From: an uncultured Candidatus Melainabacteria bacterium | GTDB taxonomy: Bacteria > Cyanobacteriota > Vampirovibrionia > Gastranaerophilales > Gastranaerophilaceae | Direction: 5' to 3' | NCBI GenBank assembly: GCA_947090755.1 | Contig: CAMUPF010000012.1 | Coordinates: 1-48,858, forward strand | Length of the DNA stretch: 48,858 nt | Shown here: piece by piece, positions 9,155 through 48,858 of the stretch | Position numbering within the stretch: position 1 is the stretch's first letter | Layout of the letters: each line of letters opens with the position of its first letter | Program-made: the position numbers and the translations under genes | The notes under the pieces: model-generated | Seen by the model: only the letters and a program-made list of their open reading frames with translations | The model's database searches: none | Told to the model about the DNA's origin: nothing

Positions 9155-10181
9155 TTAACGTTTTACGCAGTGTACTGACCACTTGGCATTGCTTGTATCA
9201 TAACTCCATACCGCTGCACTTTCCATACCCATGCCCCACGCATAATTGTTTGGGGCATGGTTTGAAGACCAGTAGGCTGTAGATGTCTTATAGGAAGTTC
9301 CGTATATTAAATTTTGGTTGACAAAAACGGCGACTAATTCATCAATATTTGGCAATCTTAGTTCTTCAGCCTGATTTTTGCATATACTAACTGCTCCCTG
9401 TTGGGTGACTTTAGCACTAGTGCCGGCAGCCATTTTATTAGGTAATTGTGGCGCGACTACGATACTGTCGCTTGAATATAGTGTGGTCATAAAACCTATG
9501 TCTTTTCCGACAGTATTAGGGCCTTTGTTTCCGTTTAAGTCAAATACGAAATTCGCACATATTTTAGGATAAACAAAGTAATAATATCCGTAATAGGCTG
9601 TGGAGCGTTCATTCATATACATTTGACAATTGGGATTATAGAATACTGCAATACTTTCGCCGTTTATTGTTTCAAAAGCTGCAGCCTTCGTGTCTAATGT
9701 TGAAAATGATGTATATCCATAAGAAGCACTGACACTTGTTAGCAACGGGTTTAATTCAGACATTTTGTTCGGAAAAGTAATTAAAGAACCGTTCATTGTA
9801 GTGATTTTGCTGCTTATTCCGCAGTCTTGCAGGTGGTCGCTATCGCAAATATTGTTTATTTTGAGAACTTTGGACAAACCCTCTGTCACAAACGATTCGG
9901 CCGCTGTGTCGACGGCGGATTTTGATTCATTGCCTTCCGTTAAAGTCCCGTAACCATTCAATGCGGGCATTAAAGCCAATCCTTGAGAAAATCTTGCATA
10001 TAAAGCTTTACGCTGTGTGTTCCATGTTCGTTCGTTAATATTTCCCGTGAGCGACGGTAACGTAATTGCCGCAACTACGCCAATAATCGTTAATGACAGC
10101 AGGATTTCTGCCATTGTGAAGCCCCCCCCCCCTCAGCAGGAAGCCACGTTTTACAAGCCTTTTCAGGATTTTAGTTTTCAT
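9155..10181 (-). CDS. Phase-variable prepilin, copy 2 (leader and pilin out of frame as assembled)
   Basis: The start ATG at 10181 follows a GGAGG site and gives a classic basic prepilin leader (MKTKILKRLVKRGFLL), then a run of 11 G, then CTTCACAATGGCAGAA. With 11 G the frame shifts and stops within about 45 codons. With 10 G it reads LLRGGG|FTMAEILL, a perfect prepilin cleavage site with a 20-residue leader. The pilin part continues to a stop at 9155 with NNICDSDHLQDCG, FDLNGNKGPNTVGKDIG, RLPNIDEL and SVHCVKR. This copy has no palindromic insert and so probably shows the ancestral leader. An internal ATG at 10114 lies 7 nt after the G run. Frame change by slippage at the G run is inference; the alternative frames are seen directly. 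Confidence 0.85.
10122..10132 (-). repeat. 11-base homopolymer (C on +, G in gene) in prepilin leader
   Basis: Eleven consecutive C on the plus strand fall inside the leader of prepilin copy 2. Ten or thirteen would restore the frame. Confidence 0.9.
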
Positions 10182-22797: not shown

Positions 22798-23947
22798 TTA
22801 TCGTTTTACGCAGCGAACTGATAGGTTAAGTGTTTTCATATCGGAATTTCTGATTCCGGAAGTATAAAATACATCCCATGCTCGTTCTGAGTTATAAACC
22901 GTTCCGGACCAAATTTTGGTTGTAGTCGTTAAGTTTAAAATATCTTTATTTATAAGCATCGCAGAAAGTTCGTCAATATTTGGTAGGCGGGATTCAGAAT
23001 CCGCGGTTGTACATAATTTTGCTGCATTAGGCCATGTCGCCGTTCCTGCGTTATTGGCTGATGAAGGCATTGGAGCGACAACCAGAGAGTCAGTCGCGTT
23101 AAAAACTGTCATAATGCCTATGTCTTTGCCTACCGTGTTTGGCCCTTTGTTACCATTTAAGTCGTAAATAAAGTTAACACACATATTTGACTGTGGGAAT
23201 CCGAATACATTTCCATAAGCTGTCAAGCTTTCCTGATTTAAATATTGTGTGCTGCAGGACTGATTATAGTATGCAACAATGCTTTCCCCGTTTTGGGTTT
23301 CAAAAGCCGCGGCCTTAGTATCTTGTGTCGTGTATGAACTTCCTGAGTATGCGATACTTCTAAAGTATGAGTTTAGTTCATAAAGTGTTGTTGGTAATGA
23401 AATTATTGACCCTGCCATGTTGGTAAAAGATGAAACTGTTCCGCAATCGGCTAAATGAGTGTTGTCGCAAATGTTGTTGATTTTAAGTACTTTTGCCAAC
23501 CCTTCTGTCAAAAAAGTTTCGGTGGCTGTGTCGATTGCGGAAGCTGATTCCGTTGCTTCTGCTATTGTTCCGTACCCGTTAAGTGCGGGCATTAGGGCTA
23601 TTGCTTGTGAAAAACGCGCGTAAAGTGCTTTTCGCTGAGTGTTCCAAGTCCGCTCGTTAATATTACCTGTTAATGATGGTAATGTAATCGCGGCGACCAC
23701 GCCGATGATTGTTAATGAGAGCAATATCTCCGCCATGGTGAATGCCAAGCCGAGCAGAGCCACGGAGCAAGGCTTGCCTTGCGAAGAGACGAGCGTGCGA
23801 CGGTCAAGACCGCGCTCTTGACCGCTAACGCGAGCGGTGGCGTTTAACGCGAGGCGCAGTACCGGCGTTGCGTTAGCGTGCTCGGCTTGCCCCCCCCCCC
23901 CTACTGTTCAGGCCCATATTACAAGGGTTTTCAGCTTTTGTGTTCAT
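22798..23947 (-). CDS. Phase-variable prepilin, copy 3, with in-frame palindromic insert (out of frame as assembled)
   Basis: The ATG at 23947 follows GGAGGTATATAAT. Fifteen codons run to AACAGTA, then 12 G. With 12 G the frame ends after five more codons (CGC TAA). With 11 (or 14) G it stays open through a 144-nt insert and into LGLA|FTMAEILLSLTIIG, giving a leader of about 68 residues. The mature part has NNICDNTHLADCG, YDLNGNKGPNTVGKDIG, RLPNIDELSAM and NLSVRCVKR. Ala rather than Gly is at -1. A GTG at 23763 is in frame inside the insert but lacks a ribosome-binding site. The ectodomain differs strongly from the other copies between the conserved blocks. Confidence 0.85.
23746..23889 (-). 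mobile_element. 144-bp palindromic element in prepilin leader, with 11-bp terminal inverted repeats
   Basis: CAAGCCGAGCA at one end (23746-23756) is the exact reverse complement of TGCTCGGCTTG at the other (23879-23889). The length is 48 codons. Its plus strand aligns with the element at 32378-32524 (GAGCAGAGCCACG, GACGAGCG.GCGACGG, ACCGCGCT.TTG.CCGC, TGGCGTTTAACGCGA), but the prepilin here reads the opposite strand. Mobility is inferred from its repeats and orientations; it encodes no transposase. Confidence 0.75.
23890..23901 (-). repeat. 12-base homopolymer in prepilin leader (copy 3)
   Basis: Twelve C on the plus strand, G in the gene, lie directly beside the palindromic element. Eleven or fourteen would open the frame. 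Confidence 0.9.
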
Positions 23948-28504: not shown

Positions 28505-29648
28505 TTATCGTTTAATGCATCTTATTGCATAAGCTATAGTGCGAAAGTTATAAAATTTCCTGAATTGTCCGTCTACTCCCCAGGCTTTTAAGCCATCGTT
28601 TCCACTGCTCCATAATGATGAAGACCAGTGTGCGCCTAGCCCGAGAGAAAAGAGTTGATAATTATAATACATTGAAGCGAGTTCTTCTCTATTTGGAGTC
28701 CTGTATTCAGGGTCAAATTTAGTGCATTCGCTTACCCCGTCTTCCTGTGCAACATTCGCTGTATCTCGATTAAACGGATACGGGGACACGACAATCGGGT
28801 CGACTGCGCCCAGTACTGTAATTACTCCGATATCTTTGCCTACTGTGTTAGGGCCTTTGTTTCCGTTCAAATCATAGATAAAATTCACACACATTTCGTT
28901 TTGTGTTGGAGCCCACGGAACCTCGCTTATGGTTGCACTGCAGCGAGGATAGTAGTAAACGGCAATGCTTTCACCGTTAACGGTTTCAAAAGCTGCAATT
29001 TTTGTGTTTACTTGGGAGTAATCATGATTATTTGTTGAACCTCTTACTGTTTTAAATGCTGTGTTGTAATCGAAAAGATTATCCGGCAGGCCTGTAGAAT
29101 ATGCTGAATATGGCATTGTGCCATCAAGGGCGGTTATTTTTGTCGGTATTCCGCAATCTTGAATATGCTCGTGGTCACAGATGTTGTTAATTTTAAGGAC
29201 TTTGGCTAAGCCTTCTGTGACAAAACTTTCAGCGGCTGTGTCGGTTGTAATATTCCCGTCTGCGTCCTCGGTTAAATTCCCGTATCCGTTTAACGCCGGC
29301 ATTAAGGCAATAGCCTGCGACATACGGGCAAAAAGCGCTTTTCGCTGTGTGTTCCACGTGCGCTCATTTATGTTGCCAGTCAAACTTGGTAATGTAATCG
29401 CCGCTACCACACCAATAATCGTTAAGGACAGCAAGATTTCGGCCATTGTAAATGCGACGTTTTTCGCTCCTGACAAATTCCACGCAATTGTACTAAACAA
29501 TTGCGGAATTTGAAACGTCGCTATCGTAGTGCTGACCTGCTTGTCTTGCTCACGCAAGCCAACACCGTCAGCACCGGCTGACGCAATCTTACCCCCCCCC
29601 TGAGCAGAATGTCCATATTATACGACTTTTCAGAATTTGTTTTTTCAT
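28505..29648 (-). CDS. Phase-variable prepilin, copy 4, with in-frame palindromic insert (out of frame as assembled)
   Basis: The ATG at 29648 follows GGAGGTATT and gives MKKQILKSRIIWTFCS before a run of 9 G. With 9 G the next codon is TAA. With 8 or 11 G the frame is open through a roughly 136-nt insert into KNVA|FTMAEILLSLTIIG; with 10 it stops at a TAG near the insert middle. The mature part shares NNICDHEHIQDCG, YDLNGNKGPNTVGKDIG and AIRCIKR, with RTPNREELASM in place of RLPN. A TTG at 29557 is in frame but has no ribosome-binding site. Confidence 0.85.
29456..29591 (-). mobile_element. Palindromic element in prepilin leader (copy 4)
   Basis: On the minus strand I see CGTCAGC-CGGT-GCTGACG, CTTGC-GTGA-GCAAG, and a long stem AAATTCC/GCAATTG...CAATTGC/GGAATTT nested inside GCGACGTTT...AAACGTCGC. 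The segment TTGCGTGAGCAAGACAAGCA resembles the intergenic element at 19017-19135. The insert lies exactly between the G run and the pilin, as in copies 3 and 5. Outer limits are set by comparison with copy 2, which lacks it. Confidence 0.65.
29592..29600 (-). repeat. 9-base homopolymer in prepilin leader (copy 4)
   Basis: Nine C on the plus strand, G in the gene. Eight or eleven would open the leader frame. Confidence 0.9.
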
Positions 29649-32337: not shown

Positions 32338-33463
32338 ATGAAAAGTATAGTAAACATGTACGCAGGGGGGGGGGGGGAGCCCTGAGCAGAGCCACGAAGT
32401 AGTTTCCGAGCGTCAATTTTACGGAAACTACGAAGAGTCGAGCGCGCGACGGGCAAAACCGCGCTTTTGGCCGCAAGCGCGAGCGTTGGCGTTTAACGCG
32501 AAGGGCGGAGAGCCGGCGGGTCGTGCATTTACAATGGCCGAAATCCTTTTATCCCTAACAATCATCGGCATAGTAGCCGCTATAACGTTACCGAGTTTGA
32601 CCGGCAATATTAACGAGCGCACTTGGAACACGCAGAGAAAAGCTTTGTACGCCCGAATGAGTCAGGCGATTGCCTTAATGCCTGCAATGAACGGTTATGG
32701 AACTTTAACAGAAGACGAAAATCACAGTGTGACGGCCGACAACGCCGCTGAAACTTTTGTGACTGAAGGACTTTCAAAAGTTCTTAAGATAAACAATATT
32801 TGTGACGCTGACCATCTTGCGGATTGTGGTATTGTGTCTAAAATTACAACCTTCGCCGGCGATAATATAGATATGCCGAAAAACCTTAAAGAACTTAATC
32901 CCAAAGGCGCTGGATGTTATGGGGATGGACGTGGTTCTTCTATGTCTATTATTAATTCTAAAGCGGCTGCATTTGAAACTCAGAATGGTGAAAGTATAGC
33001 TGTTTTTTATAATCCTGCTTGCCAGTTTGATATGAACTCAACTTTTTATTATTCAAGTGTTGTTGTTTGTGCCAATTTTATATATGATTTGAATGGCAAT
33101 AAGGGGCCAAATACCGTGGGAAAAGATATCGGCATAATGACCGTCTTATATCCGACAGATACAAATGTGGTTGCACCAATGTTGGCAAAAACTATTAGCA
33201 GTGCTCGTTACACACAACCGGATGCCGGCAAAGCTTGTTCTGTGGCAAGTTCCGAAATTCGTTTGCCCAATAAAGAAGAATTAATGGCATTATGGTATAA
33301 CAGCCTGTTATTTGTAGAAAATCCATTTGCTCAACAAGGACTCTGGGCATCAACCGTATATGATGCAAAAAATGGCTGGTTGATTGATACCTCTAACGGG
33401 GTTATTTATGTAGTGCCGAAGGATGATACAAGGGTTTATAGTGTTAGATGTATTCAAAGATAA
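32338..33463 (+). CDS. Phase-variable prepilin, copy 5, with in-frame palindromic insert (out of frame as assembled)
   Basis: The ATG at 32338 gives MKSIVNMYA and then 13 G. As assembled the frame ends at TGA (32383-32385). With 14 G it ends at the TAG near 32400. With 12 G (or 9, 15) it stays open through a 147-nt insert and reads GRA|FTMAEILLSLTIIG, a leader of about 63 residues. The mature part has NNICDADHLADCG, CANFIYDLNGNKGPN, RLPNKEELMAL and YSVRCIQR. It differs from copy 1 at many synonymous positions in the pilin helix although the inserts are identical over 58 nt. A TTG at 32486 is in frame without a ribosome-binding site. Confidence 0.85.
32365..32377 (+). repeat. 13-base G run in prepilin leader (copy 5)
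   Basis: Thirteen G, the longest of the four tracts, directly precede the palindromic element. Twelve would open the frame. Confidence 0.9.
32378..32524 (+). mobile_element. 147-nt palindromic element in prepilin leader (copy 5)
   Basis: The element has stems GTAGTTTCCG...CGGAAACTAC (32398-32430) and GCGCTT...AAGCGC (32461-32480). It is 49 codons long and has no stop in the frame that joins the pilin. Its plus strand aligns with the plus strand at 23746-23889, where the pilin is read from the other strand, and its last part is identical to window positions 1-58. Confidence 0.75.
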
Positions 33464-39437: not shown

Positions 39438-39458
39438 AAACGGGTTTATCCCGTTTTT
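39436..39458. terminator. Bidirectional terminator
   Basis: AAAAACGGG-TTTAT-CCCGTTTTT lies between the convergent 38598 and 39457 genes, with A and T runs that suit both strands. It overlaps the stop of each gene. Confidence 0.8.
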
Positions 39459-42273
39459 ATGGTTTATATCCTGCCGGATATTCTAATGAACTGAATTCAT
39501 CAAGTGTTATATCCAAAATTTTACAGATATCTCCTATGTAATCGCGTTTGCGAATTAGTGAAGAGGCGTTGTAACCGTTCAAGGCCAGAATTATAATTCT
39601 TTTGCGAGCCTGCGAGTCTTTAGGAAGCTGGCTTAAATTTTTGACGCCCATATATCTTAAAATGTTTCGAACCCGTCGTTTACAAAGTCCTGACGCAATA
39701 TTTGCGTTGGAATACTGCTGGTTAAACTCATAAGCCGCCTCGTCAAAGGCTTTTGTCGCTTTAGCCGCGTTGCCGCCTGAGAGCACTTCAAGTGCCGCAT
39801 TTGTCTTATTGGAAAGCGTATTCATATAGTTTGGCGCGTTGAAGGATACATCAACAAGCGCTTCGTATTGGCCAGCTGTTAATTTTGATGTGTCGATACC
39901 TCTGGCTTTTTGGAGTTTATTGATTGCGTCAACAATATCGTGTGCAAGTATTTGATAGATTTCGCTTTCTGAAAGTTCGTGTTTATCAAGATAAGCTCTT
40001 TCCGCCGCTCTTGCGTTATGGAAATTGTGGCCTATACCGATAGTTTTTTTATTTGAACTGCATTTATAGGCGGTTTTACGGTACCCTTCGGTTTCTTTCA
40101 ACTCGTTTATGTAATCGAGGCTTACACCTGTGAACCTCGCTACATCTTCTGCGGATTTTATGTTTTTAAGGTTAGAATATTGCCATGAGAACTCACCGTA
40201 TTTTTTACCGATATCAATTTTTGCGATATTAGGTCTTACGTTTTGAATTGGTGTGATGATTTCTTGCTCAGAAACAGGCGGTTGTTCTTTAGAAATCCCT
40301 GCTGTCAGCGCTGCAAGGTGTTTGTTAAGCTTGTCCGCGGAGGCCGGCCCGAAACCGAACAATTCTTTGTTCAAACGGGTCGTAAAATCTGCGACAATTC
40401 CGCTGTTAACTTTGTCTTCACCGATTTGATTAACGACGGCCGACAAAATGTATAATATTTGTTTTTGTCTTGTACCGACATCTGTTCCGCGCTCTTCAAT
40501 AATTGCGTTTATAGGGGTTTCGTTGTCGTACATCTTTCGATACTGTTCAATTACGCCCTGCGCATTATTTTTATTGATTCGTGAAACCCATAGTTTTAAC
40601 GAAATATCATCCGCCGCACCGGTTTTATCAGAAACGATGTCTTCAATATTTTTGGCTATATCTCTTGTCGTTGTTTTCAGAAACGAATTTACAACCCTTG
40701 TGATATCGTCCGCGTCTTTGATATTTTTACGAATATATTTTTGTACATCTGATTGTAAAATTTCAAATGTTGTACTGAAATTTTCGTTTTCAAATTTCGT
40801 TTTATTAGCGTCAAGTAACTTATCTGTTATTGAAAGGATGTATTCCTGCGCGGTTACGTCGCCTTTTTTCTGTAAAAATTGTGTGATTGGAATTCCGCCC
40901 GAAAGTTTGTTGAAGGCTTCGAGGAATTTAACCACATTTTTCTGGTCAATACCATCAAGTAAATAATGAACATATTCTTTATCAATATTGTTTTTGTCTT
41001 TTGAAAGCGCTTCAAAGAGGGTTTTACTCATAAAATCAATATCTTTATTTTTACCGAGCGATGCGGTTAATTTTTCGATGTCATTAACGCTTTCGTTTTT
41101 TAACGAAGCGTTTACGTGTTCTAAAACGGTCTTGTTTGTCCCAAAACCGGAGGCGTCAACCTGTGCTCTGGTGATTTTTGAAATATAAGCCTTTCTAACC
41201 GGCTCATCACCCCATTCTTCATCTATAAGTGTGAGCAGTGATTTGCCGCCTGAAGCTTTTTTGAATTCTGCTAAAACTTCGGTGACATTTGATGAGTTGA
41301 CTTTATCCATTAAAACTTTTACATCAGTTCGACCTAGCGCAAAAGAGTTTTTATCGATTGTTTTGAAAAGTGAAGAGGCAATATCTTTAGGCTGTTTTAA
41401 AAGCAATGAATCCATTAAACTTTCAAGTTCTCCGATTTTGCCGTCTTTTAATAGTTGTTTAGCCTCGTCAAAATACGGTGAATCTTTGTAGCCGGCCGCT
41501 GTAAAATAGGAGTTGACAAAATTTTTCATCAATGCTTTTTTCTGTTCTTTTTCATCATCCGCGAACGGTTTTGTGAATTCATCGTTGAGGATTCTTAATA
41601 ATGATGTGTGGTCTTTGTTATTTTTATGGTTTTTAACTTTATTCGCAACCTCAATGGCGTTGCCCGCATTGATTGATTCTAAGAGATAGCGGAAGTCTTT
41701 ATCTGCGTATGAAAAGTGATTGTCATCCGCGTGGGTGAATATTTCGCCGGCAAGTTCCGTGGAATCAGCCGTATACATTTTCTGAACAGTTTCAACTATT
41801 TCGTTGACTTTGGAGGTTGAAATTCCCCATTCAAACCAGCTATCATCCATTTCAGAGGCTACTTCTTTATTAAACTCGGCCCTTAATCTTGCCAGTTCCT
41901 GCTTTTGGAAAGCGGTTTTAGCGCCGGTCATCGCTTTTTGATAAAGAATTTCAAAGGTTTTAATGGCTCCGGCTTTGCGCTCCTCACGTGTCATGGAATC
42001 ATCCTTGAGAAAGTCGCCCAGCAGTGTTTTACCTTTGTGCTCTTTTTCGTAATTCCCCATGACGGTGAGAATATTCCCCGTATTCAAATATTTTTCAGGT
42101 GTCTTTAGTGCCTTAACGTCAAGAATCCTCACCACAACTGTGCGCGTTTGGGTAGAATTAGATTTAGCCTTGCTGAAATTCACGTTGCTATTTTGGGCTT
42201 TTTTCTTATTACTGCTTTTTGCAGTATCACGTCTTGCGCTTGCTGCACCCACTTTTTGAACTTTTTCAGACAC
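39457..42273 (-). CDS. 938-aa repeat protein with C-terminal GH24 (phage-type) lysozyme domain
   Basis: The N-terminus is basic and low-complexity with no signal peptide. Residues about 150-700 hold several similar helical units of roughly 100 residues with a shared pattern like LLxxIxxxNVxxVLxxFxKxSGGxxL. Near residue 715 a GH24 domain starts: the catalytic Glu in KETEGYRKTAY, then KTIGIGHNF near residue 742 and TAGQYEALVDVSFNAPN. It ends with RIIILALNGYNASS and a helical tail. GH24 enzymes cut the glycan strands of peptidoglycan. I infer a wall-remodelling or exported effector role; the N-terminal repeats are unrecognised. Confidence 0.85.
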   Translation of the reverse strand: MSEKVQKVGAASARRDTAKSSNKKKAQNSNVNFSKAKSNSTQTRTVVVRILDVKALKTPEKYLNTGNILTVMGNYEKEHKGKTLLGDFLKDDSMTREERKAGAIKTFEILYQKAMTGAKTAFQKQELARLRAEFNKEVASEMDDSWFEWGISTSKVNEIVETVQKMYTADSTELAGEIFTHADDNHFSYADKDFRYLLESINAGNAIEVANKVKNHKNNKDHTSLLRILNDEFTKPFADDEKEQKKALMKNFVNSYFTAAGYKDSPYFDEAKQLLKDGKIGELESLMDSLLLKQPKDIASSLFKTIDKNSFALGRTDVKVLMDKVNSSNVTEVLAEFKKASGGKSLLTLIDEEWGDEPVRKAYISKITRAQVDASGFGTNKTVLEHVNASLKNESVNDIEKLTASLGKNKDIDFMSKTLFEALSKDKNNIDKEYVHYLLDGIDQKNVVKFLEAFNKLSGGIPITQFLQKKGDVTAQEYILSITDKLLDANKTKFENENFSTTFEILQSDVQKYIRKNIKDADDITRVVNSFLKTTTRDIAKNIEDIVSDKTGAADDISLKLWVSRINKNNAQGVIEQYRKMYDNETPINAIIEERGTDVGTRQKQILYILSAVVNQIGEDKVNSGIVADFTTRLNKELFGFGPASADKLNKHLAALTAGISKEQPPVSEQEIITPIQNVRPNIAKIDIGKKYGEFSWQYSNLKNIKSAEDVARFTGVSLDYINELKETEGYRKTAYKCSSNKKTIGIGHNFHNARAAERAYLDKHELSESEIYQILAHDIVDAINKLQKARGIDTSKLTAGQYEALVDVSFNAPNYMNTLSNKTNAALEVLSGGNAAKATKAFDEAAYEFNQQYSNANIASGLCKRRVRNILRYMGVKNLSQLPKDSQARKRIIILALNGYNASSLIRKRDYIGDICKILDITLDEFSSLEYPAGYKP

Positions 42274-42433
42274 TATACACCTCTTTTACCTTGTAAATAT
42301 AAGCTTTATTTCGGCAATTTTACCGTATAACTTTAATGTTTTTTACAATAATTTACAGAACCGCTTGAAAATAAACCGTTGTTTTAATATAATGACATAA
42401 GTAAGTTACATAATAATAGAAGGGGATATATCC

Positions 42434-43009
42434 GTGAATACATATATGACAGAAGGCGTTGGAAAAAGAATAGTTGATGCGCTTAAAAAACAGAGCGAAG
42501 TGGAATTTGTTAATAATACTGTGAATCCGCAGCCGGAAGAAACTGTTGAAACTATACAGCCGGATTTTACAGAAACACATACAATGGAGCCGGAAGTTTT
42601 TGTCGCAGAAAATAACTTCAATGCAATGCCGCAGCAACCGGTGTTCACAACTGTAAACCCTGTACAAAATAATGTTTATCCATCTGCGAATGACTTTAAC
42701 GGTCTTGAAGTTCCGCCCAATGTTGCGGTTTTACGCCAGTTGATTTCACAGCTTCCAAGCGGTGTTTCCCGTCAGGCAGGCGCTTTGGTCATCAAACAAA
42801 CAATGGAGGCTTTGGGTATTTCTATGAAATCCGTTCTTCAAGAAGCACAACAACTTCAAGAAAACATTAATCTTTCATCACGCGAATGCCAGAACAGCAT
42901 TTTAGAATGCAAAAAACAAATTAATACTCTTGAAGCGCAGGTTCAAAAATATCAAAAACAATCAGCATCTTTGAACGATATCGTTAGTTTATTTCTTCAG
43001 ATTAACTAG
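42434..43009 (+). CDS. Unknown protein with C-terminal coiled coil
   Basis: The 191-aa protein starts with an amphipathic helix (MTEGVGKRIVDALKKQSEVE), has an acidic Pro/Gln/Asn-rich linker (residues about 30-90), a hydrophobic central section (VAVLRQLISQLPSGVSRQAG) and a coiled coil at the end (ECKKQINTLEAQVQKYQKQS). No family is recognised. The GTG start at 42434 is supported by an AAGGGG site 8 nt upstream; an ATG four codons later is too far from it. It may be a scaffold or chaperone for the proteins encoded nearby. Confidence 0.7.
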   Translation: MNTYMTEGVGKRIVDALKKQSEVEFVNNTVNPQPEETVETIQPDFTETHTMEPEVFVAENNFNAMPQQPVFTTVNPVQNNVYPSANDFNGLEVPPNVAVLRQLISQLPSGVSRQAGALVIKQTMEALGISMKSVLQEAQQLQENINLSSRECQNSILECKKQINTLEAQVQKYQKQSASLNDIVSLFLQIN

Positions 43010-43329
43010 TATCTGAACGTGCTTTGGATATCTCTATCGAGCATACCTCTTGCTGATTCGTATTCAGTCATTACCATTCTTAACTGGTTTTGATAATTAT
43101 TCATTTGCTGATCAAGCCGCTGTTCTAATAACTTCATCTTGGCCTGTCGCTGCTGCAAAGTCTTCACAATAGGGGATTCGGTGTCATAGTCAGTACCGAC
43201 TTGCATTAAGTCATCATTAGACGACATCAAGTTCATCTTTGCTTGAGTAATCAATTGTATCTTGTATTCCAAATCGCATTTAAGACTTGTTAAATACTGC
43301 AAACGCATTGACGCTACTAACACACCCAT
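43006..43329 (-). CDS. Small helical protein, short member of the conserved-ends family
   Basis: The 107-aa protein is almost all helix. Its N-terminus (ASMRLQYLTSLKCDLEYKIQ) follows the same pattern as ASQARYLALTARKTNTEYEG of the 44712 gene, and its end (MLDRDIQSTFRY) resembles IEKNVESTFKTF there. It looks like the two conserved ends without the large middle domain. Such helical-hairpin proteins are typical of secreted filament or translocon subunits, but no family is recognised. It starts 11 nt after the 43341 gene and overlaps the 42434 gene by 4 nt at its end. Confidence 0.7.
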   Translation of the reverse strand: MGVLVASMRLQYLTSLKCDLEYKIQLITQAKMNLMSSNDDLMQVGTDYDTESPIVKTLQQRQAKMKLLEQRLDQQMNNYQNQLRMVMTEYESARGMLDRDIQSTFRY

Positions 43330-43340
43330 ACACTTTTTCC

Positions 43341-43613
43341 TTATCTTGTTTCGTTAAGATTGGCCCCTTTCAAAAACGTATGCTGGCTGTTTTTTGCGAT
43401 TAATTGTTCCATTTTCATCAACTGATGCTGGTGGTAATTCAACCTGTATTGTGCCATTTTTAACTTTTTTCTCATAGTTAAAAAATCTCTGACACCGTCC
43501 ATAAAAGACGCAACTAACGCTTTGACAGGGCTTTTTCTTATAATGAAGTTTCTTGAATATATTAAGAAATCAACTAATCTTTTTATATTCATCTCTAAAG
43601 TTTCTCGAAGCAT
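43341..43613 (-). CDS. Small basic helical protein
   Basis: From the ATG at 43613, which has an AAAGGA site, the protein has 90 aa. It is basic and helical, with RRLVDFL-like hydrophobic periodicity early and KKLKMAQYRLNYHQHQLMKM later. No family is recognised. It directly precedes the 107-aa helical protein on the same strand and is probably co-transcribed. The in-frame extension upstream (to 43667) lacks a ribosome-binding site. Confidence 0.6.
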   Translation of the reverse strand: MLRETLEMNIKRLVDFLIYSRNFIIRKSPVKALVASFMDGVRDFLTMRKKLKMAQYRLNYHQHQLMKMEQLIAKNSQHTFLKGANLNETR

Positions 43614-43779
43614 TACTGTTCCTTTACACTTTAGACCTACAAATATATAAAAACCCTCTATGCACAAATATTGCGCTTTTTCGAAATCATGTTACGAGTT
43701 CTTTACATTTTGTAAGCCAAATCTGTCTTAACGTTATGCATGCTCTATCGGACAAAAAAGAAAAAACTTTAATGAAAAG

Positions 43780-44592
43780 TTATAAGTTTTGTATAGCTTT
43801 ACTGTCACCTTCAATGGATTCTTTAAGCATTTTCTTGACGACATCGCCTTGAGTATCAAGCATTTTGCAAACGGTTTCAATGTTGCGAACTTTGTTTGTC
43901 AAAATTGTATCGGCGTTTGTCGTAACGTTTCCGGTTATTCTCTGATAAGCAGATAATGCTGCAGATGAAGTACCTTGCATTAAGTTACCCATAACGAGCG
44001 CAGGAAGTCCGTATTCCCCTAAGTATGGTGCGGCTGACTGCATAATTCCGCCCCATCCTGAGATTAAGCCTGCAACAGGTAGTACGAGGTTTTTGGCGAA
44101 CCCGAAACCGCTTGCGGTTCCGACGCCATAAGCGCTTGCGCTTGCCACGTTTGCGATACTGCTTGCGATACCTGACGCACCACCGGTAATGTAGCCGGTA
44201 TTAGTTCCCCAGCCGGAAATTGGTGATGCTCCGCCGGTGTAGAAACCTGAGTTGCCAAATAATGAAGCAGCCCCGCCAGGGAAGCCTGAATAGTTATAAA
44301 GTGAATCAATACCATAAGAACTTCCGCCTGAAACACCTGAGTGATAAGAGGTTCCGGCTACGTTCATGATTTCTGAGGAGCCGAAAGTTGTTGCAAAGTT
44401 TGACGGAGAAAATAAGGTTGCCATATTATACAAAAAGCCGCCTGTGCCTTCCCAGCCGGTGCCTGCGCCGGTTCCGGAAACGGTTATGTCGCGTAATTTG
44501 TCATAAGTTTCCCACAACTGCGCTTTGGCGTCGCTGCCCGCAGACCCGAATTTGTTTGCTATTACTAAATAACTGTCGTTTTTGTATGACAT
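43780..44592 (-). CDS. Gly/Ser/Ala-rich protein, probable exported structural protein
   Basis: The 270-aa protein starts MSYKNDSYLVIANKFGSAGS and has a long central region rich in Gly, Ser, Ala, Tyr and Phe (for example SGVSGGSSYGIDSLYNYSGF and SIANVASASAYGVGTASGFG), then a more ordinary helical C-terminus (IETVCKMLDTQGDVVKKMLK). There is no classical signal peptide. The composition resembles surface or appendage proteins. No family is recognised. An AGAGAGG site precedes the start. Confidence 0.7.
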   Translation of the reverse strand: MSYKNDSYLVIANKFGSAGSDAKAQLWETYDKLRDITVSGTGAGTGWEGTGGFLYNMATLFSPSNFATTFGSSEIMNVAGTSYHSGVSGGSSYGIDSLYNYSGFPGGAASLFGNSGFYTGGASPISGWGTNTGYITGGASGIASSIANVASASAYGVGTASGFGFAKNLVLPVAGLISGWGGIMQSAAPYLGEYGLPALVMGNLMQGTSSAALSAYQRITGNVTTNADTILTNKVRNIETVCKMLDTQGDVVKKMLKESIEGDSKAIQNL

Positions 44593-44615
44593 GATGACCT
44601 CTCTAAATTTTGTCT

Positions 44616-44711
44616 TGCTCGACTCGGACGGTGTAACCGTCTTTTATACTGGGCTTATCGGTGAAATTTAACGATTAGCCAAGTATAGAACCGGCTCAGC
44701 CGGCGCTCGCG
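44616..44711. repeat. Palindromic intergenic element
   Basis: Three stems lie in 96 bp: GACGGT-GTA-ACCGTC, an imperfect 16-bp stem TATACTGGGCTTATCG / CGATTAGCCAAGTATA, and CCGGCT-C-AGCCGG. The GC-rich ends (GGCGCTCGCG) resemble in style the prepilin leader elements. It separates the 43780 and 44712 genes on the same strand. Confidence 0.55.
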
Positions 44712-45950
44712 CTATGAACTGAATGTTTTGAATGTGCTTTCGACGTTCTTTTCAATAACTTTAGCAACGGCTTCCATTTCTGTTTGAAGCGCGTCTTGTT
44801 CGGTGTCAAGCTGTTTTAATCTTAATTCAAGCGTTCTGTCTTCTTCTTGAATAATTTTGGTTTTTGCGTTGATATCTTCAACTGCTTTTTCATACATTGC
44901 CTTGTTGTATTCGTATTGATTCATAGCATCCTGATATGCCGCCTGATCGGTAATTGTTTCGGTTTCGATGGTGAATGTTGCAGTTGAATTTTCATAGTTA
45001 ATTGATGTTGCACGGCCGGATTCGTCGAATTCAATGAATGCTTTGTCCGTTGAAGTGATTTTTGTTTTAATCGCTTCCGCGTAATATGTATTTAAATTTG
45101 TCTGATATTCGCTCGGATTAGCAGCGTTCATTGAAGAGTTTGCGCTGGCCATAAGTTCTTCTTCTGTTGCAAAATATTTTCTGCCCATAGAAGTATAGGT
45201 GTAAATGTTTTCTGCGGCTGCGATTTTGTCAGAAGGGTTATCTTTTCTGATTTGTTCAAGCATTAAATCAAGTTCTTTATCTTTTCCGGCTTCATATTTT
45301 GTAAGTTCATTGTTGCCAACGTAAGCAGGAACGATACCGTTAATTGAATATTCCTGAACGTCACCTGCGCCTAAAGTTGTTTTGTCGACGAAGTGCATTA
45401 CCTGTGCGTCATCGGTGTAAATGCCGAGATTTTCTTGCGGAATCGTCGCGAAGTCAGGATATTTATCTTTAAGAATATCGTATCTTGATTTTTCTTCGAT
45501 GTTAGCGGGATCGTAAGAAGACACCGGAAAACCGTCTACGGTGTAATTGGTGCCGTCGCTTGTGATTTTATCCGCAGGAATAAGGTTTGAAGTCGTATCG
45601 TAGCCTGTTCTAACCTGAGGATTTACTTTTGTATTTTTAATACCGGTAAATACATCTGAATAGTGGTAGTGTTTTACGAGGTAATTGTAGTCTGAAGAAG
45701 CATCAGAAAGTTCTGTCATTTCTTCAATGGCTTCTTCAACATTACCGTCCTGATAAGTATATTGAATAGTTGTGAAGTCCTGAGTGCTCGGTGCTGTCGG
45801 AACTTCAAGCGCTAAATACTGGTTGAAAGCATCAGCACTTTGGTTTGCAAGGGCTGTTCTTTCCTGATTTATTTGCTGGCCTTCATATTCCGTGTTGGTT
45901 TTTCTTGCGGTTAAAGCCAGATATCTTGCCTGTGATGCTGCCATACCCAT
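44712..45950 (-). CDS. Conserved-ends helical protein with large middle domain (MGMAASQAR family, copy A)
   Basis: The 412-aa protein begins MGMAASQARYLALTARKTN and continues in a helix rich in Gln and Glu to about residue 55. A variable middle (residues about 60-340) follows, and it ends in a coiled coil (IIQEEDRTLELRLKQLDTEQ and on to VESTFKTFSS). This plan, conserved helical ends and a variable centre, is like flagellins and translocator proteins, but I recognise no named family. A paralogue begins at 48096 and a minimal version is encoded at 43006. A GGAGAG site precedes the ATG. Confidence 0.8.
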   Translation of the reverse strand: MGMAASQARYLALTARKTNTEYEGQQINQERTALANQSADAFNQYLALEVPTAPSTQDFTTIQYTYQDGNVEEAIEEMTELSDASSDYNYLVKHYHYSDVFTGIKNTKVNPQVRTGYDTTSNLIPADKITSDGTNYTVDGFPVSSYDPANIEEKSRYDILKDKYPDFATIPQENLGIYTDDAQVMHFVDKTTLGAGDVQEYSINGIVPAYVGNNELTKYEAGKDKELDLMLEQIRKDNPSDKIAAAENIYTYTSMGRKYFATEEELMASANSSMNAANPSEYQTNLNTYYAEAIKTKITSTDKAFIEFDESGRATSINYENSTATFTIETETITDQAAYQDAMNQYEYNKAMYEKAVEDINAKTKIIQEEDRTLELRLKQLDTEQDALQTEMEAVAKVIEKNVESTFKTFSS

Positions 45951-46163
45951 AAGCGTACTCTCCTTCTATACAAAATTTATTTTTTACTACTCTACTTTAT
46001 TGCTTATAATGGTGATTTTTTAAAAGTCAATATTCTATAAAATATTATAAGCGCTATTATATTAAAAGGATATACAAAATAGCGTAAAATCAACCTTTAA
46101 GGGGAAGATATTTATTAAAAATCGTATATTTAGTGTATAATAATTTAAGAAAAAGGGGTAAAA

Positions 46164-47147
46164 ATGATTTTAGTAACAGGCGGAGCCGGATATATCGGAA
46201 GCCACTGCGTTTTAAAACTTAAAGAGGCAGGCGAAAAAGTTCTGGTTTTTGATAACTTTTCAACCGGTCATATTGAAACCGTGCAAAACTTAGGGGTTGA
46301 ATTCGTTAAGGGTGATTTGAAGAACCCATCTGATATAAATGCGGTTTTTGATGATTATAAAATCGATGCAGTAGTTCATTTTGCAGCTTTTTCGCAGGTT
46401 GGTGAAAGCGTTAAAGAACCTTATAAATATTTTCAAAATAATGTTTGCGGTACCCTGAACCTTCTAGATGTAATGGTTAAACACGATTGTAAAAAGATCG
46501 TATTTTCATCTACCGCGGCGACTTATGGTGAGCCGGTTTACACGCCTATTGACGAAAACCACCCGCAAAAACCGATTAATCCTTACGGTGAAACAAAACT
46601 TACCGTGGAAATGATAATGGATGATTTTGATAAAGCATACGGGTTAAAAAGTGTCCGGCTAAGATATTTTAACGTAGCCGGTGCAGATGAATCAGGCCGA
46701 ATCGGTGAATGGCACGAACCTGAAACCCATTTGGTTCCGAATGTATTAAAAGCGGCTCTTGGAAGCGGACAAGTATTTAAACTGTTCGGAGATGATTATG
46801 ATACAAAAGACGGCACCTGCGTTCGCGATTATATAGACGTAAACGATTTGATTGACGCTCATATACTTGCGCTTAAATATCTTCAAGATGGCGGTGACAC
46901 AAATGTTTTCAACCTCGGAACAAAAACCGGAAGCACTGTAAAAGAAGTTTTTGCGGCCTGCGAAAACGTAACCGGCATGAAAATTCCGTATGAAATCTGT
47001 CCGCGTCGTGAGGGCGATCCGGCGATTCTTGTCGCTGATAACACTAAGGCGCTTGAAATTTTTGGCTGGCAGCCGTCACGAAAACTTCAAAATAGTGTCC
47101 AATCGGCTTGGAACTGGGAGCAAATTTTAACAAACCGTAATAAATAG
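46164..47147 (+). CDS. galE: UDP-glucose 4-epimerase
   Basis: GalE interconverts UDP-glucose and UDP-galactose (or the N-acetyl forms) and feeds galactose use and surface-sugar synthesis. The 327-aa SDR protein has MILVTGGAGYIGSHCV, VVHFAAFSQVGESV, the catalytic Ser-Tyr-Lys set in FSSTAATYGEP and NPYGETKLTVE, RYFNVAGAD and GTCVRDYIDV. It has its own AAAGGGG site and probable promoter (TATAAT near 46136). It is the only ordinary metabolic gene in this 10-kb block. Confidence 0.97.
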   Translation: MILVTGGAGYIGSHCVLKLKEAGEKVLVFDNFSTGHIETVQNLGVEFVKGDLKNPSDINAVFDDYKIDAVVHFAAFSQVGESVKEPYKYFQNNVCGTLNLLDVMVKHDCKKIVFSSTAATYGEPVYTPIDENHPQKPINPYGETKLTVEMIMDDFDKAYGLKSVRLRYFNVAGADESGRIGEWHEPETHLVPNVLKAALGSGQVFKLFGDDYDTKDGTCVRDYIDVNDLIDAHILALKYLQDGGDTNVFNLGTKTGSTVKEVFAACENVTGMKIPYEICPRREGDPAILVADNTKALEIFGWQPSRKLQNSVQSAWNWEQILTNRNK

Positions 47148-47201
47148 GCAATTATATATCCCAAATATACTTTATATAAATAAGGAAATTAAGGGATATT
47201 T

Positions 47202-47936
47202 ATGGGATTTATCAGCGCATTAAATTTTGGATTTAGTAATTATGCTTATACGCCTTCGTTTATTCCAAGCTTTGGCGGATTTAATTCCTATGCCCCTTTA
47301 TTTAGTTTTGGCGGAACAAGTACCGGTTCAAGCTATGGGCTTAGCGGTTTATCATTTGCTCCAAAGAGTAATTCTTACGACTTCTCATTCCTCAATACTT
47401 CAGCCGGAAGCCGCGCAAAATCATCAACCCGCAGCAATCTTTCATTTGGAAGCCTTACGAGAAGAACCGGTAACTTACAGTTGGATTTGGTAAATAATGC
47501 AATGTCTTGGGTTGGTAAAGTTAACAATGATGCTACCGGCAACAGGTTGTTTTCTGGCGGCGTATCTCAACACTGGTGCGCAGATTTCGTAACCTGGAAC
47601 ACTAGAAAAACTTTTGGCTCTAAATTACCATCATCATTCGGTTCTTCAAGTGTTGCCGGACTAAGGGATTGGGGAGAAAGTAATAACTGTTATATAGACA
47701 CAACTGCGGTTTCAAACAAAAGTGATTTCATTGCTCAAAATGTAAAGCCGGGCGACATTATGATTGAAAAACGCGGCGGTAAATCTCATACCGGCATCGT
47801 TACAAAGGTTAATTCTGATGGTTCTTTTGAAACAGTCGAAGGAAACACGTCTAATAAAGTTGGTACACGTAAATATAGTGCAAATAGCTCTACCTTAAGC
47901 GGTTTTGTTTCATTGGATAAATATGCAGTCGCATAA
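47202..47936 (+). CDS. CHAP-domain amidase/endopeptidase
   Basis: The 244-aa protein has a Phe/Tyr/Gly/Ser-rich N-terminal half (residues 1-90; for example SFGGTSTGSSYGLSGLSFA) and a C-terminal CHAP domain, with the catalytic Cys in HWCADFVTWNTRK, the His in KSHTGIVTKV and VEGNTSNKVGTRKY. CHAP enzymes cut peptide parts of peptidoglycan. No classical signal peptide is present, as in the other proteins of this block, so export would need a dedicated route. An AAGGGA site precedes the ATG and a terminator follows. Confidence 0.85.
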   Translation: MGFISALNFGFSNYAYTPSFIPSFGGFNSYAPLFSFGGTSTGSSYGLSGLSFAPKSNSYDFSFLNTSAGSRAKSSTRSNLSFGSLTRRTGNLQLDLVNNAMSWVGKVNNDATGNRLFSGGVSQHWCADFVTWNTRKTFGSKLPSSFGSSSVAGLRDWGESNNCYIDTTAVSNKSDFIAQNVKPGDIMIEKRGGKSHTGIVTKVNSDGSFETVEGNTSNKVGTRKYSANSSTLSGFVSLDKYAVA

Positions 47937-47958
47937 TTAATAATTGTTAAAGCATGTA

Positions 47959-47981
47959 AAAGCCCCGTGATTCGGGGCTTT
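47959..47981 (+). terminator. Terminator of the CHAP gene
   Basis: AAAGCCCCG-TGATT-CGGGGCTTT, followed by a short T-rich stretch. Confidence 0.75.
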
Positions 47982-48095
47982 CTTGTATTTGTGTTAAGAT
48001 TTGTAAAGTGGCATGGAAGGGGTATTTAAAGTTTTAAAACCATGTTACCGACATGCATGGCACGGAAACACAAAAGCAAGGAAAGGTCGAAAGCG

Positions 48096-48858
48096 ATGGG
48101 CATGGCAGCATCTCAAGCCAGATTTCTGGGCTTGACAGCTAGAATGAATAACGTCGAATTTGAAGGACAGCAGATTAACCAGCAAAGAACTGCCCTTTCT
48201 AACAAATCAGCTTCTTACTACAGCGATTTGTTAGGAATGTCTGTTCCTACTGCTCCATCTGTTGAAGACTTCACTCAGACTGTCTATACTTTCAACGACG
48301 GCGCTTTGACTAACCAGATTACATCTTTAATCGCAGGTTCTAATGGTTCATACAAAGTTAGCTACATTAGAAGCTGGACTGACGATTTCTCTATCGTTGC
48401 TGCTTCACCTAGCATTATCACAAAGGCTGGTGCTAACTACAAAATCGGCGCGGTTACTTTAAGAGATTTAGGCACTCCACCGGCTAAAGGCGTAGATGAA
48501 TACTACGATTCTTTATCCGCTGACCAGCAAAAAAACTTGATCAAAGAAGAAGAAGATTACTTGAAGCTTTTACAAAAAACTCACGGCAATACAGATAAAT
48601 ACTACGTAAGATATGTTCAAAATACCTCCACCGGTGAGTATGAAGCTATCTTCTACAACCAAAACGAGGTTCAAGGCGCAGTCTTAGACGAACGCGGCAA
48701 CACTCAATCCTTCGTCGCAGCATACAAAAATGGTTCCGCTCAAAGAGTTGAAGAAATTAAAGGCGTCGAAAATTGCTACCTCGAACAGGATTCTACAGGA
48801 CGGTATATAAACATAACAATAGATGACAAGCAGTATGCATTATCTACCAACACCGTAA
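48096..48858 (+). CDS. Conserved-ends helical protein (MGMAASQAR family, copy B), truncated by the window
   Basis: From the ATG at 48096 the frame is open to the window end (254 codons). It starts MGMAASQARFLGLTARMNN and VEFEGQQINQQRTALSNKSA, nearly the same as the 44712 product, then diverges after about residue 55 (LLGMSVPTAPSVEDFT is still similar to EVPTAPSTQDFT). The middle is different and richer in Tyr, Asn and Ser. The expected C-terminal coiled coil lies outside the window. An AAAGG site is upstream. Codon use favours A- and T-ending codons, as in a well-expressed gene. Confidence 0.8.
   Translation, partial: MGMAASQARFLGLTARMNNVEFEGQQINQQRTALSNKSASYYSDLLGMSVPTAPSVEDFTQTVYTFNDGALTNQITSLIAGSNGSYKVSYIRSWTDDFSIVAASPSIITKAGANYKIGAVTLRDLGTPPAKGVDEYYDSLSADQQKNLIKEEEDYLKLLQKTHGNTDKYYVRYVQNTSTGEYEAIFYNQNEVQGAVLDERGNTQSFVAAYKNGSAQRVEEIKGVENCYLEQDSTGRYINITIDDKQYALSTNTV

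Follow-up and report, generated by a model that had tools for sequence, protein, structure and literature searches.

No recognised secreted proteins have been reported by the authors who described the filament-less flagellar basal bodies of Buchnera (PMC8109811), and partial flagellar gene sets in the order Gastranaerophilales have been read as flagellum loss (PMC4040986; implied also by PMC3787301). FliE, FlgB and FlgC, in turn, serve as flagellum-specific markers (Abby and Rocha, PMC3459982). Here we describe a protein family encoded in a stretch of 48,858 nucleotides (hereafter the window), which is one whole contig (G000:C12) of a Gastranaerophilus-like source genome of 1.78 Mb in 53 contigs. 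This large family is genuine, has no name in any library that we searched, and is linked genetically to a flagellar-type secretion system that does not serve motility; we consider it probable that its members are lineage-specific late axial or secreted subunits of this second, non-motility flagellar-type type III secretion system (T3SS) of Gastranaerophilales. Comparisons were made across 59 genomes of relatives, 386 genomes of the phylum and 80 genome loci carrying the gene cassette described below, 43 of which have full flanks (well covered).

First, three proteins of the window form one family. A first-pass annotation of the window had grouped the open reading frames (ORFs) at 43006, 44712 and 48096 into a family that looked new, its helical ends conserved and its middle domain optional, and all three exist as described. 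W107 (43006..43329, minus strand; 107 amino acids (aa)) is the minimal member, W412 (44712..45950, minus strand; 412 aa) is an expanded member and the first gene of the cassette, and W48096 (48096..48858, plus strand), identified as an ORF with similarity to W412, is a stand-alone member of which the N-terminal 254 aa are present. The N-terminal pattern said to be common to the two larger proteins is reflected in 51% identity between W412 and W48096 across residues 1-101 (E 3e-24). In profile-profile comparison W107 is collinear with the family (N-terminus E 5e-7, C-terminus E 1e-8, joint E 4e-13), whereas nine unrelated neighbour profiles, helical ones included, gave E 0.011 or worse as controls, which bears out its proposed grouping with the others; direct homology of the family to the FliE, FliH, FliG-like, W90, W191 and W270 profiles was not significant in such comparisons. 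The additional claim of matching C-terminal ends stands for W412 and W107, while W48096 contributes nothing to it, as this gene is interrupted by the end of the window and contig and its C-terminus therefore lies outside. Contig C35 terminates at the identical base of a paralogue, so the interruption is a repeat-induced assembly break. The longest ORF for the third protein starts at 48042, but 48096 is likely the true start because a promoter-like site at 48027-48053 overlaps the longer one. Judged by sequence, W107, W412 and W48096 are thus one family whose similarity is not due to chance.

Second, each member is predicted to begin with a common helix of ~45 aa and to end with another of ~55-75 aa, with a middle part that is either absent or inserted, and those we examined span 107-773 aa. 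AlphaFold models W107 as a helical hairpin (helices 2-45 and 53-105; mean predicted local distance difference test score (pLDDT) 88) and W412 as helix 2-46 (annotated as N-helix 1-46), a beta-rich middle and helix 336-411 (pLDDT 87), in agreement with the proposed helical ends and optional middle. Conservation follows the same division: identity among W412 orthologues is 94% and 88% at the two ends and 56% between them, and in a mixed set of family members identity is 51/12/41% (N end/middle/C end). An outgroup genome from another family (G374) encodes four 109-aa members with the full consensus at both termini, for example MGFAASQARYLMLTARRSDLE...VQKVIQKNIQTSFKTFA, which provide a direct link between the minimal and expanded forms; one of them occupies the place of W412, ahead of W270 and W90. 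Most simply, the hairpin would be the ancestral form, into which the middle was inserted afterwards. When PDB chains were re-aligned to the W412 model with VIA-align, the matches included FlgK (Z 9.9; 128 residues, 3.9 A), FliD (9.2), flagellin (8.8), FlgL (8.2), FlgG (7.7) and hook (7.4), and flagellar axial proteins or complexes filled the top 24 rows (Z 9.9 to 6.4) before the first unrelated fold appeared at 6.2. This supports an architecture shared by the W412 model and flagellar axial proteins, with homology unproven. A fold search with W107 alone was uninformative, the generic hairpin matching IpaB, CT398, Rad50 and others.

The family is also widespread within its lineage. Beyond the three members in the window, the source genome encodes nine more, one of them truncated and the complete ones 300 to 750 aa long. 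Members were found in 57 of the 59 relatives and in 174 of the 386 phylum genomes, all belonging to this order save G374; within the phylum sample, the family was absent from all eight f9 genomes listed and from the listed genomes outside the class. The profile searches that the first-pass annotation had named as a check gave no convincing match to Pfam, NCBIfam or PHROGs, and no PDB sequence match was found, in line with a new family. More specifically, the Flagellin_N profile (PF00669) did not match the window proteins at E<=1 or the paralogues at E<=0.1, scans of Pfam and NCBIfam at E<=1 returned no curated T3SS needle family, and a plasmid search with W412 returned no match.

Third, the family is linked to the genes of a flagellar-type export machine. 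The cassette order W412-W270-W90-W107 is retained in 75/80 loci; W270 (43780..44592, minus strand) is a protein with 16% glycine that is conserved beside W412, has no Pfam family and, considered as a candidate T3SS translocator, reaches only 1.32 in its strongest 19-aa hydrophobic window, and W90 (43341..43613, minus strand; 90 aa), the first gene of the W90-W107 pair, was found in 80/80 loci. In 37 of the 43 loci with full flanks, a fliE-fliF-fliG-like-fliH-flhA block lies <=10 kb from the cassette, in most cases 3-6 kb downstream and separated from it by other genes. The third gene of this block (L057 3556-4596) encodes a protein conserved between fliF and fliH in the lineage, which has no Pfam or NCBIfam match and is FliG-like by its place and a FliG-like stretch only. 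In the source genome, Pfam identifies FlhA, FliH, FliF, FliE, FliO, FliP, FliQ and FliR (fliOPQR on C8), FliE, FliP and a FliI/YscN ATPase (on C44) score above the NCBIfam cut-offs, and flgB/flgC/flgF-G-type rod genes lie on C10, where FlgB and FlgC were named via PF00460 and by reading the sequence. The genome thus holds FlhA, FliP, FliQ, FliR, FliI and FliH, as expected of a flagellar-type T3SS, together with FliE, FlgB and FlgC, which as flagellum-specific markers (PMC3459982) identify the system as flagellar-type and not as a classical injectisome. Flagellin_N had 0 matches in this genome, and for hook (FlgE) and FlgK there were only three PF00460 matches, in open frames of <=239 aa that are too short.

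A search with FHIPEP across the relatives separated two types of FlhA. One, scoring about 880 bits, occurs in 32/34 flagellin-bearing and 0/25 flagellin-less genomes (p 1e-14), and the other, scoring about 720 bits and adjoining the cassette, occurs in 54/59 genomes with or without flagellin; of the five genomes without the latter, four are <90% complete, and in the fifth (G058) no FlhA of any type was matched. These data indicate two export systems, one linked to flagellin and one retained almost everywhere. We rejected the possibility that the family is part of a canonical flagellum because 24 genomes carry the family and the 720-bit FlhA without flagellin. A third FHIPEP protein with the FlhA C-terminal domain only (~490 aa; G000:C8:59709-60731, L058 7677-9152) is present in nearly all relatives.

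Fourth, a conserved promoter-like site precedes the W90-W107 pair and most stand-alone family genes. The consensus of the sigma28 (FliA/SigD) promoter is TAAAGTTT-N11-GCCGATAA. A motif scan found sites close to it upstream of W90-W107 (TAAAGTTTTTTCTTTTTTGTCCGATA, 43746..43771, minus strand), of W48096 (TAAAGTTTTAAAACCATGTTACCGACA, 48027..48053, plus strand) and of W938 (TAAAGTTATACGGTAAAATTGCCGAAA, 42309..42335, minus strand). The strict pattern TAAAG-N-nCCGAYA has ten sites in 189 kb of own-genome sequence, all 5' of family or cassette genes, and occurs upstream of 0/20 flagellin genes. With the -10 pattern relaxed to TAAAG-N-nYCGWnW, sites precede 74/79 W90 genes (search window 330 bp versus 200 bp), 29/47 stand-alone members and 6/20 flagellins of relatives, versus 1/499 background ORFs, 5/89 cassette W412 genes and 0/46 fliE genes. 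The relaxed pattern also yields chance sites, but the background counts led us to reject a chance origin of the matches, and since other genera and flagellins had served to define the pattern, W90 is a near-independent test. W938 (39457..42273, minus strand) is a 938-aa protein with a phage-type lysozyme domain (phrog_7 endolysin, E 2e-13), and its promoter-like site, present in the window, recurs in each of the two relatives with a call for this gene; it is a probable member of the same regulon and may be the wall-cutting enzyme of the system.

Related family members are carried by phages as well. Seven IMG/VR contigs encode one of 555-773 aa (L155 7074-8798, L156 8001-10040, L157 8001-9719, L158 8001-10319, L160 8001-9665, and also L161 and L162). 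In the contigs examined, the gene follows shortly after that for the terminase large subunit (two genes intervene in L156), and head and portal genes are present, with baseplate genes in one. A host-type sigma28-like promoter precedes several of these genes, and the chromosomal member on contig C2 shares, along its entire length, 36% identity with one phage member. Searches of the INPHARED phages with a phage-borne member and of IMG/VR with W107 gave no match. The phage-borne members are possibly genes that alter the host surface.

Family unity, predicted helix topology, genetic linkage, promoter association and the absence of flagellin together support the following model. The core would be a helical hairpin of the two conserved ends, as in W107 and the 109-aa outgroup members, and the expanded members would carry a fast-evolving middle domain inserted between the same two helices, comparable to flagellin, FlgK and FlgL. 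The machine has an export gate (FlhA, FliOPQR), an ATPase (FliI, FliH), an MS-ring (FliF), FliE and a FlgB/C/F-G-type rod, and the family would fill the distal positions left vacant by the undetected hook, FlgK and flagellin. W412, with W270, would be expressed without a sigma28-like promoter and may form the base or be built first. The 'late' genes, under a sigma28-type factor whose identity we infer, would be the W90-W107 pair, the majority of stand-alone paralogues and, probably, the lysozyme gene W938. Most likely, the late members are exported and either assemble into an extracellular filament or needle or decorate one, and the face it exposes would vary with the inserted middle domain; such filament formation or decoration, with the surface display it implies, is our best inference and not a result. 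We would go further with a confidence that falls a little short of even and suggest that Gastranaerophilales assemble a surface filament of their own, distinct from a flagellum, on an export machine of flagellar type dedicated to it, built from subunits that are unrelated to flagellin or unrecognisably diverged from it and re-create its design, with some ten or more interchangeable subunits per genome varying the exposed domain and with phages that carry and express their own.

Other readings of these data are less probable. The members could be exported by the same system and act as released or surface-attached effectors or adhesins, their ends doing no more than signalling export and binding chaperones, without any polymerisation; many paralogues, unrelated middles, conservation limited to the ends, scattered stand-alone loci and a promoter of the late type would suit this role. 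We nevertheless regard it as rather unlikely, given that both ends are conserved, that W107 and its outgroup relatives have nothing else and hence no cargo, and that the two-helix packing resembles that of axial proteins. It is considerably more doubtful that the proteins are cytoplasmic or periplasmic coiled-coil scaffolds or regulators of the machine (FliJ-like, FlgN-like or spanin-like) and not substrates: the W107 hairpin does match many unrelated coiled coils, with CT398/HP0958 among the top rows, but such proteins do not usually occur in high copy number or have large, beta-rich middles that evolve fast, and W412 matches axial proteins specifically. Finally, that machine and family are decaying remnants of a lost flagellum, as the lack of detectable flagellin, hook and FlgK in the source genome might suggest, is barely credible in view of intact ORFs, conserved cassette order and promoters, expanded paralogues and a 720-bit FlhA retained even by flagellin-bearing relatives that own the 880-bit type too.

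Several observations weigh against the subunit model that we favour. The family has no sequence similarity to any axial family, the W412 model has a predicted template modelling score (pTM) of only 0.48, its VIA Z-scores lie in a range that common helix arrangements can reach, and Foldseek gave no match at E <0.001, a flagellar filament being the best at 5e-3. Within the genus of the source genome, cassette and flhA locus lie apart (C12 versus C34; likewise C1 versus C4 in G004), the f9 genomes and G396 possess an FlhA but no family member, and the relative G050 has both FlhA types with no family match to a single-sequence query. In addition, the relaxed promoter pattern was chosen after part of the data had been viewed, orthologous promoters are not independent, and a sigma28 factor gene was not located, no search aimed at fliA having been made.

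Beside W107 lies the divergent gene W191 (42434..43009, plus strand), called in 64/80 loci, whose coiled-coil-like product has a weak FlxA-like match below the cut-off. At 47202-47936, next to a family gene, is the gene for a CHAP-domain (peptidoglycan hydrolase-like) protein whose N-terminal part is rich in Ser, Gly and Phe. A pilin-like family (TMAEILLSLTIIGVVAAITLPSLTGNINERTWNTQRKALYARFSQ...) with variable later parts has many copies (26-985, 9155-10114, 22798-23763, 28505-29557 and 32486-33463 in the window) and represents a second conserved-end/variable-part family in this genome. A same-genus locus belongs to Candidatus Gastranaerophilus phascolarctosicola, and the GTDB contigs with near-identical loci bear the labels Candidatus Melainabacteria and 'Fusobacterium sp.', the latter probably mislabelled. 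Three cassette-bearing public genomes labelled Fusobacterium or Brachyspira (L075, JAMPIJ010000020.1; L111, FR900478.1; L140, ONYB01000081.1) likewise look like mislabelled Gastranaerophilales; the L140 stretch holds only W90 and W107.

The export machine, the promoters and the size of the family go beyond the first-pass annotation, which had likened its minimal and expanded members to a flagellin core and flagellins with inserted domains. That comparison was largely right, as export-locus linkage, sigma28-like promoters and structural matches to axial proteins suggest, and it stays an analogy, with no sequence homology to flagellin detected. If our reading is true, the family marks a surface organelle or a route of secretion that is new for a lineage of the animal gut, the core-plus-insert design of flagellin becomes traceable from a minimal hairpin in the outgroup to expanded members, and the second export system makes it testable why non-motile bacteria retain flagellar basal bodies. 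Like flagellin, FlgL and FlgK (PF00669 and relatives), the family is predicted to have conserved helices at both ends and an optional or hypervariable middle, and it resembles them in its sigma28-like promoter, its linkage to flagellar export genes and the structural neighbours of the W412 model; it differs in having no sequence match to them, in occurring in flagellin-less genomes and in being tied to a different FlhA type. The T3SS needle subunit (SctF) resembles the minimal member, a predicted helical hairpin of ~100 aa linked to an export apparatus, but no needle family matches, large paralogues here have the same ends as the minimal member, and the system has the flagellum-specific FliE, FlgB and FlgC (PMC3459982). 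As in Buchnera (PMC8109811), a flagellar export machine is retained without a working flagellum, yet here it is accompanied by a large family of candidate substrates that is linked and apparently co-regulated. Moreover, the non-flagellar T3SS of Myxococcales (PMC3459982) is likewise derived from the flagellum and without motility parts, but is without FlgBC and FliEG, which the present system has or appears to have.
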